A DNA stretch of 64,000 nucleotides from Pseudofrankia sp. DC12. Lineage in GTDB: Bacteria > Actinomycetota > Actinomycetes > Frankiales > Frankiaceae. Position numbers and translations under genes: made by a program. Shown one piece after another: positions 30,609-37,964 of the stretch. A model generated the notes under the pieces. It saw nothing but the letters and a program-made list of their open reading frames with translations, did not search any database and was not told where the DNA came from. Location: contig NZ_KQ031391.1 in the NCBI RefSeq assembly GCF_000966285.1, positions 5,332,430 through 5,396,429 on the forward strand, written 5' to 3'. Position 1 is the stretch's first letter. The number at the start of each line of letters is the position of its first letter.

Positions 30609-33023
30609 ATGCCGGGACCGCGGCGCCGCCGTGGCAGGGGCGTACCCGAACCTGACGACTCCGCGCTGCCGAGCGGGCTGACCGGGCCGGTCGACATTCC
30701 GGACCCGCCGCCGCCGCCACGGCTGCCGCGGCGGGAACGCTTCCGCCAGGGTGTGCGCAGTGCCGTGGCGACGGCCGCCGGGCTGCCCCGGGTGCTGCGC
30801 CTGTGCTGGCAGGCCAGCCCGTGGGCGACGGTCCTGCTCGCCGTACTGACCGTCGTGGTCGGCCTCTTCCCCGCGCTGACGGCGTCGACGGCCCGGCTGC
30901 TCGTCGACGCCGTGGTGCACGCGGTCGAGATCCGTGCGTCGCACCGGCCCGACCGGGCGACCCTGGTGCTGCCCCTGCCGGGCAGCCCGCACGTGGCGAC
31001 GACGTCCAGCACCCACGTCGTCTTCTGGCTGGCCGTCACCCAGTTCGTCGTCTACACGGTCAGCGAGGTGCTGACGGCGGCGCGGTCGATCGTGCAGCGC
31101 GTCCTGTCCGACCGGCTGTCGCTGACCGTCTCGACCATGGTCGTCGCCAAGGCCAGCCAGCTGGAGCTCAGCTTCTTCGAGCAGTCCGAGTCCTACGACC
31201 TGCTGCAGCGGGCCGCCGACCAGGGCACCAGGCCGTTCAACACGCTGACGACGTTCTTCGGGCTGCTACAGACGCTGGTGACCTTCGCCAGCATGATCGG
31301 ACTGTTGATCGGCCTGAACCCGTGGCTTGGCCTCATCGTGCTGGTCGCCCCGATCCCTGCGTTCATCGTCGACACCCGCTATGGCCGGTGGACCTATGCC
31401 CGCAGCCGGTGGACCTCGCCGGTCAACCGGCGAATCGTGTATCTCCAGCGGTTGCTGACCACGGACAACGACGCCAAGGAAATCAAGATCTTCAACCTTG
31501 GCCCGTACCTGGTCGAGCGGTTCCGGCTGCTGTCCGCGAACTACAACCAGCGGCTGCGGGAGCTGTCCATCCGGCGTCAGCTCGCCGAGCTGGGCTGGAG
31601 CCTGCTCAGTGAGATCGCTCGCTCCGGCAGCTACCTGTACGTCGCCCTGCAGGCCGCCGCCGGCGCCCTGACCCTCGGTGACCTCACGCTGTACGGCACG
31701 GCGGCCTCCAGCGTGCAGGGCGGGGTCTCGAGCATGCTCAGCTCGCTGACCCAGATGTACGAGAACAACCTCTACGTCGACGACCTCTACCGCCTGCTGG
31801 CGGCACCGACCGAGACCGAGCTCCAGGCGGCAAGGGCTGCGGCTCGGGCCGAACTCGCGACGGCCGGGCCGGTGGCGCCGGGATCGACGCCCCCGCCACG
31901 GCAATCGCCCGAGGACGCGCTTTCGACGGCTGACGAGGGGTCCACTGGTGGGTCGTCTCCGGCGGAGCCGTCTCCGGCGGAGCCGGTTCCAACGGGATCG
32001 GCTCTGGCGGGACCAGTCACCGCGGGCACGGCTGTCGGCTCGTTGGACGGCCGGCCGAAGCGGCCACGCGGATCGGCGGCCGCGCTCACGAAGCCAGGTC
32101 CGTGGACGGCCGGAGGCCCACCGCCCGAGCCGGTTCCGCGGTCCATCGTCGCCGCGTTCGCCCCGACGCCGCTGCCCGTCCCGTTGCGCGGCGACGTCGT
32201 GTTCGACCACGTCTCGTTCCACTACCCCGGCACCGACCGCAACGCCCTGGTCGACGTCACCTTCGAGGTCGCGGCGGGGGAGACGATCGCGATCGTCGGA
32301 CGTAACGGAGCGGGCAAGTCGACGCTGATCAAGCTGCTGTGCCGGCTCTACTCGCCGGACGAGGGCCGGATTCTCATCGACGGCGTCGACATCGCCGACG
32401 TGGATGCGGACGTGCTCCGCTCGCAGTTCGGCGCGGTCTTCCAGGACCATGTGTCGTTCCAGGCGAGCGCCGCGGAGAACATCGGACTGGGCCAGCTCGA
32501 CGAGCTCGAGGACCGGCCCCGCGTGGAGGGGGCGGGTGTCGCGGGCGGCGCGGACGAGTTCATCCGGGATCTCGCCCACGGCTACGACACGGCTCTGGGC
32601 CGCTGGTTCGGCAACGGCGTGAACCTGTCCGGCGGCCAGTGGCAGAAGGTCGCCCTTTCTCGTGGCTTCATGCGCGAGGCCCGCATCCTGGTGCTCGACG
32701 AGCCGAGCGCGGCGCTCGACGCCCGCGCCGAGCACGACCTGTTCGCGCGGCTGCGCGCGCTCGCGACCAACCGCACGGCCTTCTACATCTCGCACCGGTT
32801 CTCCACGGTCCGCCAGGCCGACCGGATCATCTTCCTGGAAGGCGGAGGCATCACCGAGTCCGGAACCCACCAGGAGCTGATGGCCCGGGGCGGCCAGTAC
32901 GCCGAGCTCTTCACCCTCCAGGCCGCCGCCTACACCGACGACGGGGTCCCCGAGCGGCCAGCCCAGTCTCACCGTCCAGGTACGAGGGCGGGATCACCCC
33001 CGGATCCTCGGCCCAGCGGTTGA
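30609..33023 (+). CDS. ABC-type exporter, fused membrane and ATPase domains
   Basis: An 804-aa half-transporter expected to dimerise. The membrane domain spans about 65-400, with hydrophobic helices such as ATVLLAVLTVVVGLFPAL and TFASMIGLLIGLNPWLG. The ATPase has Walker A GRNGAGKST, the signature NLSGGQWQK, Walker B ILVLDEPSAALD and the H-loop YISHR. Unusually, a ~120-residue Pro/Ala/Ser/Gly-rich disordered linker (encoded about 31830-32180) separates the membrane and ATPase domains. The substrate is unknown; this exporter type carries lipids, peptides or drugs. ATG 30609 lies after GAGGGG. The gene is divergent from the phosphatase, with 293 bp between them. Confidence 0.9.
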   Translation: MPGPRRRRGRGVPEPDDSALPSGLTGPVDIPDPPPPPRLPRRERFRQGVRSAVATAAGLPRVLRLCWQASPWATVLLAVLTVVVGLFPALTASTARLLVDAVVHAVEIRASHRPDRATLVLPLPGSPHVATTSSTHVVFWLAVTQFVVYTVSEVLTAARSIVQRVLSDRLSLTVSTMVVAKASQLELSFFEQSESYDLLQRAADQGTRPFNTLTTFFGLLQTLVTFASMIGLLIGLNPWLGLIVLVAPIPAFIVDTRYGRWTYARSRWTSPVNRRIVYLQRLLTTDNDAKEIKIFNLGPYLVERFRLLSANYNQRLRELSIRRQLAELGWSLLSEIARSGSYLYVALQAAAGALTLGDLTLYGTAASSVQGGVSSMLSSLTQMYENNLYVDDLYRLLAAPTETELQAARAAARAELATAGPVAPGSTPPPRQSPEDALSTADEGSTGGSSPAEPSPAEPVPTGSALAGPVTAGTAVGSLDGRPKRPRGSAAALTKPGPWTAGGPPPEPVPRSIVAAFAPTPLPVPLRGDVVFDHVSFHYPGTDRNALVDVTFEVAAGETIAIVGRNGAGKSTLIKLLCRLYSPDEGRILIDGVDIADVDADVLRSQFGAVFQDHVSFQASAAENIGLGQLDELEDRPRVEGAGVAGGADEFIRDLAHGYDTALGRWFGNGVNLSGGQWQKVALSRGFMREARILVLDEPSAALDARAEHDLFARLRALATNRTAFYISHRFSTVRQADRIIFLEGGGITESGTHQELMARGGQYAELFTLQAAAYTDDGVPERPAQSHRPGTRAGSPPDPRPSG

Positions 33024-33259: not shown

Positions 33260-34858
33260 ATGACAACCCAGGCTCTTCTCGATGGCTCGGGATCCGAGAG
33301 GTTCAGTATCCCCGCTCTGGTCCAGCTCGTGCGGCAGGGTTCCGTTCGCGTCCCCGTGTACCAGCGGGACTTCGTCTGGGATGCGGGCGATGTTCGCGAC
33401 CTCTTTGACAGCATCTATCGGGGCTTCCCGGTAGGAACTCTGCTCTTCTGGCGGCACAGCGCCCCGGCTGGTGCCGCCTCACTCGGTCCGATTGCGATGA
33501 ACGTCGAAGCGGATGAACACGCGTACTGGGTTGTCGACGGTCAGCAGCGTATTATCTCGCTGGTTGGCTCCCTTGCGTCGGAATTTGAGGATATCGACGA
33601 GCGTTTTGAGGTATATTTCGATCTTGCGAGCCAGCGCTTCGTCAACCTCCGAAAGGGGGTCCGTCCACCGCGTGCTGTTCCGGTCCGAGAGGCTCTTGAG
33701 ACGAAGTCGCTGCTCGCTTGGCTGCGGCAGCATGCCGATGACCTGGAAGTGGCTGACTACGATCTCGCGGATCGTCTCGGCGGGGCGATCCGCGATTACA
33801 GGATTCCTGCCTACGTCGTTACTGGCGACGACCAGGAACTGCTACGCAAGGTTTTCGATCGAGTCAACACCGCTGGTAGACCAATGAGCCGGGCGCAGGT
33901 GTTCCATGCGCTCTTCGCTGGTGAGACCAAGATGGGGAGCCCCGCCAGCGTCGTCGCCGCCCTGCGCACGATGAAGTTTGGTGAGCTAGGCGAAGACCGG
34001 GTCGTGCAGAGCCTGCTCGGAATCCGCGGGGGCAACATTCAGCGAGACCTCCACGACGAGTTCGGTGCCGATGAGAACGTGGCAAGCTGGTACGACCAGA
34101 CTGAACAGGCCCTTGCCAAAGCGATCAGCTTCCTCCGGGCCGAGGGAGTGGACCACCTGCTGCTGGTCCCTCACACATTGCCGATACCGGTGCTCGCCAC
34201 GTTCTTCCACCTCCATCCCGATCCGCAGCCGTGGACGCTCCGGCTGCTGGCGCGCTGGCTCTGGCGTGGCTGGGTACACGACTTCGGGCAGGGCGGCGGA
34301 CAGACTCCGATCCTTCGCCGCGCCATTAATTCCATCAACCCGCAGAAACTGGCTGGCCAGGTACCCGACGAGTACTCCGCGGCCAGGTCACTTCTCGGCT
34401 GCTCCACGGATGGCCCGGCGCCGGACCTGCCGTTGAACAATTTCAACCCGAACCACGCCCGCAGCAGGCTTGTGATGCTGGCGTTGGCATCGCTACACCC
34501 GAGGACAAGCGATGGCATCCTTGTCGACCTGGCCGAAGAAGTGGAAGCACATGGTTCCGGTGCGATCACGCCGATCGTCCGTGGCTACCGCTCCCGCGCC
34601 GCAGCCCGAGCTTTCTGGCCCAGTGGCTCGGCGCGTATGGCCCTGACCAGCGATCCGAGGGTACTCGCCAGCCATGCGATCGATGAGGCGGCCATCACTG
34701 CTCTTCGCGCCGGCCAGGTCGAACGATTTGTCGTCCGGCGCGAAGAGCTGATCAAAAATATTCTGAGTGGTTTCCTGGACAGCAGAATCGAGCCGGGAGG
34801 CCTCGTCCGACCGCCGCTCGCAGACCTCATCGCGACTGGGATTACGGAGGAGGTCTAA
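33260..34858 (+). CDS. DUF262 (GmrSD-like N-terminal, ParB-fold) protein coupled to a HipA kinase
   Basis: A 532-aa protein from ATG 33260. The N-terminal DUF262 domain carries the two family motifs, VPVYQRDFVWD (31-41) and VVDGQQRIISL (91-101). The DGQQR motif of this ParB-like NTPase/nuclease fold drives nucleotide hydrolysis in GmrS and SspE. The C-terminal ~350 residues are helical. The DUF1524 HNH nuclease found in full GmrSD is not visible, so it may be an NTPase/sensor rather than a nuclease. Codon use is clearly less GC-rich than in flanking genes, consistent with transfer. A TAGAAT -10-like box lies at 33190-33195. The stop and the start of the next gene touch, so it is the first gene of a two-gene operon. 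Confidence 0.85.
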   Translation: MTTQALLDGSGSERFSIPALVQLVRQGSVRVPVYQRDFVWDAGDVRDLFDSIYRGFPVGTLLFWRHSAPAGAASLGPIAMNVEADEHAYWVVDGQQRIISLVGSLASEFEDIDERFEVYFDLASQRFVNLRKGVRPPRAVPVREALETKSLLAWLRQHADDLEVADYDLADRLGGAIRDYRIPAYVVTGDDQELLRKVFDRVNTAGRPMSRAQVFHALFAGETKMGSPASVVAALRTMKFGELGEDRVVQSLLGIRGGNIQRDLHDEFGADENVASWYDQTEQALAKAISFLRAEGVDHLLLVPHTLPIPVLATFFHLHPDPQPWTLRLLARWLWRGWVHDFGQGGGQTPILRRAINSINPQKLAGQVPDEYSAARSLLGCSTDGPAPDLPLNNFNPNHARSRLVMLALASLHPRTSDGILVDLAEEVEAHGSGAITPIVRGYRSRAAARAFWPSGSARMALTSDPRVLASHAIDEAAITALRAGQVERFVVRREELIKNILSGFLDSRIEPGGLVRPPLADLIATGITEEV

Positions 34859-36115
34859 GTGTCTGCCGACTCCGTACTGCTCATCCAGCTCCAAGCTGTC
34901 ACAGGTGACTGGGTCGACGTGGGTTATCTTCGCAGCACTCGCGACCAGACGAACTGGTTTGAGTTTCTCGAGTCCTATTGGAACCTGCAGGACAGGCCGG
35001 TGCTGGGTCAGGTCTTCGAGGAACACGGCCGATCCTGGACCCCGAGTGCCCGCGTCGCGCTTCCGCACTGGTTCTCTCATCTTCTTTCTGAGGGCATGCT
35101 TCGACGGGCGGTAGCGGAAGCCGCGCACGTGAACACCCACCGAGAGTTCGAGCTGCTCAGACGCCTTGGCGCCGCAGATCTGCCTGGAGCAGTCCGGGCT
35201 GTCTCGACGACGGTGCTTCGCGATGACTCTGTGTCGCCCAGCCATCCGGCGGAGAATGATTCGGCGGAGTATGTCGACCCGCTGCTCAAGTTCAGCCTGG
35301 CGGGTGTGCAGCTGAAGTTCTCGGTCTATGGCGATGAACGCGGCCTGACGGTTCCCGCGCGTGGGCGGGCAGGTAATGTAATCCTGAAGTTCCCCGACGG
35401 GCGCCCGGGTTTTTCCGGTGTGCCTCAGGCCGAGCTGGGGAGCCTTGAGCTGGCACGCGCGGCTGAGATCGAGGCGCCAAAGGCTTTTCTCGTGGCGCCG
35501 TCCGCGGTGGGAGGACTCGAAGACTGGGCGAAGCGTACCTCTGAATCGGCGCTTGCCGTGCCGCGTTTCGACCGAGGGCTCGCGGACAAGCGTGTGCATA
35601 TGGAGGAGATCGCGCAGGTCATGGATATTCCTACAGCCAGGGAGTCCGCCAAGTACCGTCGCGCGAACTTCGAGACGATCGCTGTGATCGTTGAGGCGCT
35701 GACCGGCACGGCCAACGTCGGTGATGTCATCGACAGGATCGTTCTCAATGTTCTTGTTGGAAACGGGGACGCTCATCTGAAGAACTGGGCGGTGTTGTAC
35801 CCGGACGGGCGCCGACCCGTTCTGAGCCCTGTCTACGATGTGGTTCCGACTGTCCTCTACATGCCCAACGACGACCTTGGCCTGAATCTTGGCGGCTCGA
35901 AGAAGTTCAGTGACATCACGGCCGGCAGCTTCGACCGCATCGGGAGCCGCACACAATTCGGCGTCACGGAAAGCCGGCGGCGGGTTGCCGACGCTGTGAG
36001 CAGGGTGCTCGACAACTGGTCGGTGCTACGGGACCATCTGGCGGCAGAGGACCTGCGTCGCCTCACTGATCGGCAAGCTACGCTCGCTCTCCTCGGGCAC
36101 TCCCGACCGGTGTAG
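34859..36115 (+). CDS. HipA-like Ser/Thr kinase without HipB
   Basis: A protein of 418 aa from GTG 34859, which directly abuts the DUF262 stop, with GGAGGAGG inside the upstream gene. The HipA fold is complete: FSLAGVQLKFS (145-155), which is the Ser-containing P-loop where HipA autophosphorylates; the ATP lysine Lys177 (NVILKFP); HMEEIAQVMDIP (248-259); and the catalytic core VGNGDAHLKNW with Asp304 and Asn309 and metal Asp327 (SPVYDVVPT). Classical hipA follows a small HTH antitoxin gene, hipB; none exists here, and its place is taken by the DUF262 gene. E. coli HipA phosphorylates GltX and induces dormancy. The target here is unknown. Confidence 0.9.
   Translation: MSADSVLLIQLQAVTGDWVDVGYLRSTRDQTNWFEFLESYWNLQDRPVLGQVFEEHGRSWTPSARVALPHWFSHLLSEGMLRRAVAEAAHVNTHREFELLRRLGAADLPGAVRAVSTTVLRDDSVSPSHPAENDSAEYVDPLLKFSLAGVQLKFSVYGDERGLTVPARGRAGNVILKFPDGRPGFSGVPQAELGSLELARAAEIEAPKAFLVAPSAVGGLEDWAKRTSESALAVPRFDRGLADKRVHMEEIAQVMDIPTARESAKYRRANFETIAVIVEALTGTANVGDVIDRIVLNVLVGNGDAHLKNWAVLYPDGRRPVLSPVYDVVPTVLYMPNDDLGLNLGGSKKFSDITAGSFDRIGSRTQFGVTESRRRVADAVSRVLDNWSVLRDHLAAEDLRRLTDRQATLALLGHSRPV

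Positions 36116-36281: not shown

Positions 36282-37964
<1,683 letters not shown>

Follow-up and report, generated by a model that had tools for sequence, protein, structure and literature searches.

A DUF262 gene joined to hipA

We analyzed a stretch of 64,000 nucleotides from the Frankia-type soil bacterium Pseudofrankia sp. DC12 (hereafter the window; positions 5332430-5396429 of a 6.88-Mb single-contig genome), in which a gene for a DUF262 protein is directly followed by a gene for a HipA-family kinase:

33260..34858, plus strand: DUF262 (GmrSD_N-type) gene, 532 amino acids (aa), HNH-dead, proposed sensor/antitoxin; TAA stop at 34856-34858
34859..36115, plus strand: hipA, encoding a Ser/Thr kinase of the HipA family, 418 aa; its GTG start directly follows the DUF262 stop

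Pfam assigned GmrSD_N/DUF262 to the first protein (E 3.2e-25, aa 21-219), with no match to DUF1524/GmrSD_C, and assigned HipA_C (E 3.1e-38) and Couple_hipA (E 7.6e-12) to the second. No helix-turn-helix (HTH) gene was found upstream or downstream of the pair, and Pfam recognized no HTH domain within the DUF262 family itself. HipB, the HTH antitoxin of HipBA, is therefore absent, and its position beside hipA is occupied by DUF262. The only other HipA of the same genome (L002) has an ordinary HTH partner. The GC (guanine plus cytosine) content of the DUF262 and hipA genes was 62.6% and 62.8%, respectively, versus approximately 70-74% in neighboring genes. An earlier reading of this DNA, made from its letters alone (the sequence-only reading), had claimed that no base separates the DUF262 stop from the start of hipA, that the catalytic residues of the kinase are intact, that DUF262 takes the slot of hipB with no HTH antitoxin present, and that both genes have lower GC than their neighbors. 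All of these claims held: no HipB was hidden upstream, and Lys177, Asp304, Asn309 and Asp327 of the kinase were invariant in 47 HipAs.

Occurrence of the pair across genomes

GTDB genomes were searched with the HipA protein, and the 80 best loci were kept (hipA-first scan). In nearly all of these loci hipA was immediately preceded by a DUF262 homolog, down to approximately 35% HipA identity, and the pair was found in six phyla (Actinomycetota, Pseudomonadota, Myxococcota, Acidobacteriota, Cyanobacteriota and Thermomicrobiota). Exceptions at contig ends were L062, where DUF262 was wholly missing, and L034, L044 and L055, where its 3' end only was present; at three further loci (L083, L090 and L099) a HipB-like HTH gene was found in place of DUF262. 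The two genes overlapped, abutted or were separated by no more than 10 bp in 61 of 73 loci. Among 394 Actinomycetes genomes, 17 had a close HipA, with DUF262 upstream at every locus away from contig edges; close HipAs in 299 Pseudomonadota genomes were mostly HTH-linked. Also, when 546 genomes (247 + 299) were surveyed independently with DUF262 as the starting point (DUF262-first survey), hipA adjoined every complete member of the HipA-linked DUF262 clade unless the contig ended. The one apparent exception, L180, was a protein truncated in the match, and in its genome (G152) hipA lies at the end of another contig. Because of this recurrence in nearly every relative, the adjacency of DUF262 and hipA is far beyond chance, and the two genes are near-obligate neighbors over six phyla. 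The two-gene module is widespread and apparently undescribed.

In the DUF262 tree, all HipA-linked proteins formed one clade (support 100), whose sister group consisted of proteins linked to PDC-M55 (97), and these two groups together excluded the stand-alone proteins (98). DUF262 and HipA distances were correlated (r = 0.85 for 50 pairs, with 0 of 2000 permutations as high), as expected if both proteins travel together. That two unrelated genes are neighbors here by accident is refuted by the recurrence across phyla, the monophyly and the correlated divergence, and we give this explanation practically no weight. In the HipA tree, kinases linked to DUF262 and those linked to an HTH protein were neighboring groups, and the partner label changed 5 times, at least twice on well-supported branches (L043 was mis-trimmed in this tree and is to be disregarded). 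These label changes indicate that HipB and DUF262 have replaced each other in the same operon position. Related hipA operons carried an HTH antitoxin in the slot of DUF262, and both DUF262-linked and HTH-linked forms were present in plasmid records of related proteobacteria.

A DUF262 protein without the nuclease site

The features of the DUF262 protein discussed below are:

33320..33916, plus strand: GmrSD_N/DUF262 ParB-Srx-like NTPase (nucleoside triphosphatase) domain, aa 21-219
33536..33550, plus strand: DGQQR nucleotide motif, aa 93-97, kept in 56 of 58 HipA-linked homologs
34565..34585, plus strand: place of the BrxU HNH (DHIYP) motif, here ITPIVRG; catalytic His absent (L-INS-i alignment)
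34808..34855, plus strand: C-terminal tail RPPLADLIATGITEEV, aa 517-532; motif specific to HipA-linked proteins, candidate HipA docking peptide

GmrSD_N was found by Pfam in 53 of 53 members, and the window protein has the LFDS-type motif of the GmrSD family as DLFDS (RLFDS-type). PADLOC reported a full-length match to PDC-M55C at 182.7 bits, compared with 417 for the true M55C of L134. An AlphaFold2 (AF2) model of the protein, built from 53 homologs, had a mean predicted local distance difference test score (pLDDT) of 88.8 and a predicted template modeling score (pTM) of 0.65. Its top structural match was BrxU (7p9k; Z 15.4, 456 residues aligned), with a root-mean-square deviation (rmsd) of 13.7 which we read as two halves placed differently in the model; next came SspE, matched by its C-terminal part (Z 9.9), and then DndI. 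The N-domain appeared ParB-like (Z approximately 5 to ParB, Noc and KorB). Given the fold matches to BrxU, SspE and DndI, the nuclease half of BrxU/SspE is the probable ancestor of the C-terminal half.

In this C-terminal half, Pfam recognized no hidden nuclease, DUF1524 included. The catalytic residue of the BrxU HNH site is His475, located in DHIYP (PMC8565348). In an L-INS-i alignment of 58 HipA-linked, 14 PDC-M55-linked and 22 stand-alone DUF262 proteins, the column of this His was filled in 18 of 22 stand-alone and 4 of 14 M55-linked proteins, but in only 1 of 58 HipA-linked proteins. The difference in His loss between stand-alone and HipA-linked proteins was strong (Fisher p 3.7e-13), although this test ignores kinship and the His may have been lost only once. 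A placement of the HNH motif by hhalign to BrxU (aa 410-414, near Pro414) was dropped in favor of the L-INS-i alignment, in which the HHFFPR/YRIFPR stretch is brought into register; no catalytic D-H is seen in either. Because the NTP site is kept and the HNH site of the stand-alone relatives is lost, the DUF262 protein is, judged from these alignments, more likely a sensor or regulator than a nuclease.

Stand-alone relatives (L184, L188, L195, L197, L204, L205, L210 and others) retain an HHFFP-type HNH motif. This stand-alone group, placed just outside the HipA and M55 clades, is a probable set of single-gene type IV restriction enzymes.

The kinase and its possible contact with DUF262

The residues of HipA that bear on its activity are:

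35294..35296, plus strand: Ser146 of the Gly-rich loop (SLAG), which aligns with the autophosphorylation-site region of HipT
35387..35389, plus strand: Lys177, the ATP-binding lysine, invariant
35768..35839, plus strand: catalytic residues Asp304, Asn309 and Asp327, invariant

Ser146 was likewise invariant across the 47 aligned HipAs. The window protein therefore has every mark of the HipA kinase family (HipA_C, the N-subdomain, the Lys/Asp/Asn/Asp set and the Gly-loop Ser), and the HipA part of the model superimposed on E. coli HipA (3tpb) with Z 34.6 and rmsd 2.6 over 354 residues. By these residues it is an active-looking kinase. We found hipA interrupted beside an intact DUF262 gene at 5 loci (L031, L040, L076, L096 and L177), and DUF262 interrupted beside an intact hipA at 1 locus only (L073). 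In the latter (L073:6243-7965, Verticiella) there is a frame change in DUF262, which could reflect an error in sequencing, or the gene may function in split form. A DUF262-linked HipA from Myxococcota (L043:7959-10241) has a C-terminal extension of approximately 370 residues with no Pfam match.

The tail of DUF262 is a candidate for contact between the two proteins. It follows approximately the motif (E/D)x(R/T)P(P/S)(L/I)xx(L/F), then acidic residues, and this motif was found in 48 of 58 HipA-linked proteins versus none of 37 other DUF262 proteins (0 of 14 M55-linked and 0 of 23 stand-alone, the latter including L180, truncated by its contig). A different ending, EIDTE or similar, was seen in several M55-linked DUF262 proteins. 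From these sequences we infer that the tails of HipA-linked and M55-linked DUF262 may dock their respective partners. When the DUF262-HipA chain was modeled by AF2 as a read-through product (TAA read as Gln), the pTM was 0.73, versus 0.65 for DUF262 alone and approximately 0.5 expected, by our own rough estimate, for two independently placed proteins. This value hints at contact between DUF262 and HipA in the model.

Genomic site of the pair within the genus

The pair lies in a variable segment between two conserved genes:

30609-33023: conserved ABC transporter gene, one flank of the variable segment
32943..36275: variable segment with the pair, between the conserved ABC transporter and ABC-F genes
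36282-37964, minus strand: conserved ABC-F gene, other flank

At the same site, one genome of the genus (G190, L167) has a 61-bp junction with no cargo. Another (G340, L165:2901-4256) has genes for a MazE-like antitoxin, a PIN-domain toxin (VapBC-like) and an AAA_33/zeta-like kinase; remnants of this cargo are found in a third (G100, L164), an amidase gene in a fourth (G111, L166) and a DUF262-hipA pair in a fifth (G317, L169). The site looks like a hotspot of toxin-antitoxin cargo. The G317 pair shares 70.6% DNA identity with the window pair, while the flanking blocks share approximately 73-92%; its copies are sisters of the window copies in both trees, although by its flanks G317 is not the nearest relative. 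GC is low (62-63%) in both carriers. Recent acquisition, which the sequence-only reading had suggested from the low GC, is thus not supported. The two carriers in the genus share the site, and their copies are sisters, which is better explained if the pair inserted long ago and was later lost or replaced, or if it was exchanged among members of the genus. Outside the genus, the pair was also found on Azospirillum plasmids, one of them conjugative, with a recombinase gene near the pair.

Proposed function and alternative explanations

The reading we favor, with a probability of approximately 0.6, is that the pair is a HipA-type toxin module regulated by a nuclease-dead, type IV restriction-like DUF262 sensor, and not by HipB. 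DUF262 would bind HipA, probably via the conserved C-terminal tail, and HipA would be kept inactive. The DUF262 NTPase could then respond to a trigger, which might be invading or modified DNA or a nucleotide change, by altering its conformation or oligomeric state, and HipA would be freed. The freed kinase would act on translation by phosphorylating one of its factors, which by analogy would be an aminoacyl-tRNA synthetase; the resulting growth arrest would abort phage infection. In such a module the sensor half of a GmrSD/BrxU-like protein would have been retained and the cutting half exchanged for a kinase toxin. A role of the pair in defense is plausible by analogy, because of its kinship with PDC-M55, BrxU and SspE and the precedent of HipAD. 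More tentatively, and with less than an even chance, the pair may represent a distinct anti-phage class, in which a nuclease-dead NTPase reads modified or invading DNA and frees a docked HipA to stop translation, and in which the DUF262 scaffold swaps effectors via its C-terminal docking tail (HipA here, ATPase and M55B in the sister clade).

Several observations weigh against the sensor-toxin reading. The tail motif expression was post hoc, that is, defined after viewing the sequences. The fused model contains an artificial one-residue link, its pTM is not an interface score, and its tail was mostly unplaced with low pLDDT, for which the artificial linkage may be the cause. The HNH loss was probably one event common to a clade, so that the counts are non-independent, and the 5:1 direction of gene breaks, although that of a toxin and its antitoxin, is based on small numbers and is not statistically firm. 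A defense role is further weakened by the lack of defense neighbors: PADLOC and Pfam detected no excess of defense or mobile genes among 145 flanking genes (40 loci) compared with 145 control genes. The flanking genes were mostly ordinary metabolic or housekeeping genes, apart from isolated defense genes, among them Wadjet JetC and JetD. The sequence-only reading had proposed a check for recurrence in unrelated backgrounds and in defense islands; the pair does recur in unrelated backgrounds, in six phyla and not in this strain only, and a defense-island location was rejected since flanks were like controls. Besides, no HipA relatives were found in phage records, and of 52 DUF262 relatives on viral contigs, none had HipA nearby.

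A first alternative explanation is a plain toxin-antitoxin or maintenance module in which DUF262 replaced HipB as antitoxin, senses no phage and persists by addiction or persister control. The position of DUF262 in the hipB slot, the more frequent breakage of hipA, the housekeeping neighbors without defense-gene enrichment, the VapBC-like toxin-antitoxin pair at the same site in a sister genome and the copies on large plasmids are all consistent with it. However, an NTPase of 530 aa is a costly simple antitoxin, its almost invariant DGQQR site argues for an active switch, and sister DUF262 proteins belong to a candidate defense system; we consider this explanation rather unlikely. The roles might also be reversed, with DUF262 as the effector and HipA as a regulator switching a nuclease on or off by phosphorylation. 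Protein phosphorylation by HipA kinases is established and the BrxU-like full-length fold is kept, but the HNH His is lost in 57 of 58 HipA-linked proteins and kept in 18 of 22 stand-alone ones, and no other nuclease motif was found by Pfam, which makes this role improbable. A still lower probability is assigned to DUF262 acting only as transcriptional repressor of the operon, with an unlinked factor controlling HipA. HipB normally autoregulates, and the ParB-like N-domain would suit DNA binding of this kind; on the other hand, DUF262 has no HTH domain by Pfam, inspection of 13 upstream regions by eye revealed no obvious common operator, and the HipA-specific tail suggests protein contact.

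With this pair, a large, unlisted type of HipA partner is added, in which a putative sensor of the type IV restriction kind is separated from DNA cleavage and connected instead to a predicted kinase toxin. If the sensor-toxin reading is correct, one NTP-driven sensor scaffold would be re-used with different killing parts, and what DUF262 senses would become testable with kinase release, instead of DNA cleavage, as readout.

Comparison with known systems

We found no paper describing HipA with DUF262, GmrSD, COG1479 or type IV restriction in the literature outside subscription papers, preprints and supplements. Hip kinases with the partners HipB, HipS, HIRAN (HipS-HIRAN), resolvase-like and Stl-like proteins have been described by Gerdes et al. 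2021 (PMC8262856); the window kinase resembles these families as a HipA homolog with an unusual partner, but a DUF262 partner is unmentioned in the main text of that article. With HipBA the pair shares the HipA-fold kinase, including the N-subdomain and all catalytic residues (Z 34.6), and an overlapping or adjacent upstream regulator gene; the regulator is, however, an approximately 530-aa DUF262 NTPase instead of the HTH protein HipB.

BrxU, GmrSD and SspE (DUF262-DUF1524) have in common with the window protein the DUF262 domain and the DGQQR and LFDS motifs, and BrxU also matches its fold over the full length (Z 15.4). In contrast, the window DUF262 lacks the HNH (DHIYP) catalytic motif and has a kinase partner. 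In PDC-M55 (a PADLOC candidate consisting of the AAA_15 ATPase M55A, M55B and the DUF262 protein M55C), the DUF262 proteins form the sister clade and likewise mostly lack the HNH His, but they are partnered with the ATPase and M55B instead of HipA and have their own C-terminal tail, often EIDTE. Neither M55A nor M55B accompanied the pair in the window or in the HipA-linked loci of the DUF262-first survey. A complete PDC-M55 locus, with AAA_15 ATPase, M55B and DUF262, was observed on a plasmid of Paracoccus yeei (L134:1666-5665).

In ptuXYZ, a DUF262 protein without DUF1524 occurs with a PtuA-like ATPase and a PIN-BECR RNase toxin (PMC11980606). Here, too, such a DUF262 protein serves a separate toxin, which differs in being an RNase and in the additional ATPase. 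HipAD (DS-6) consists of a HipA kinase and a DUF3037/DUF1829 protein and defends E. coli, with a kinase residue needed (PMC13092281). For the window partner, GmrSD_N was the only Pfam match above the cut-off, and the HipAD partner family is unrelated to DUF262 by Pfam; still, both are two-gene systems of a HipA kinase with a non-HipB partner, and for HipAD phage defense has been validated.
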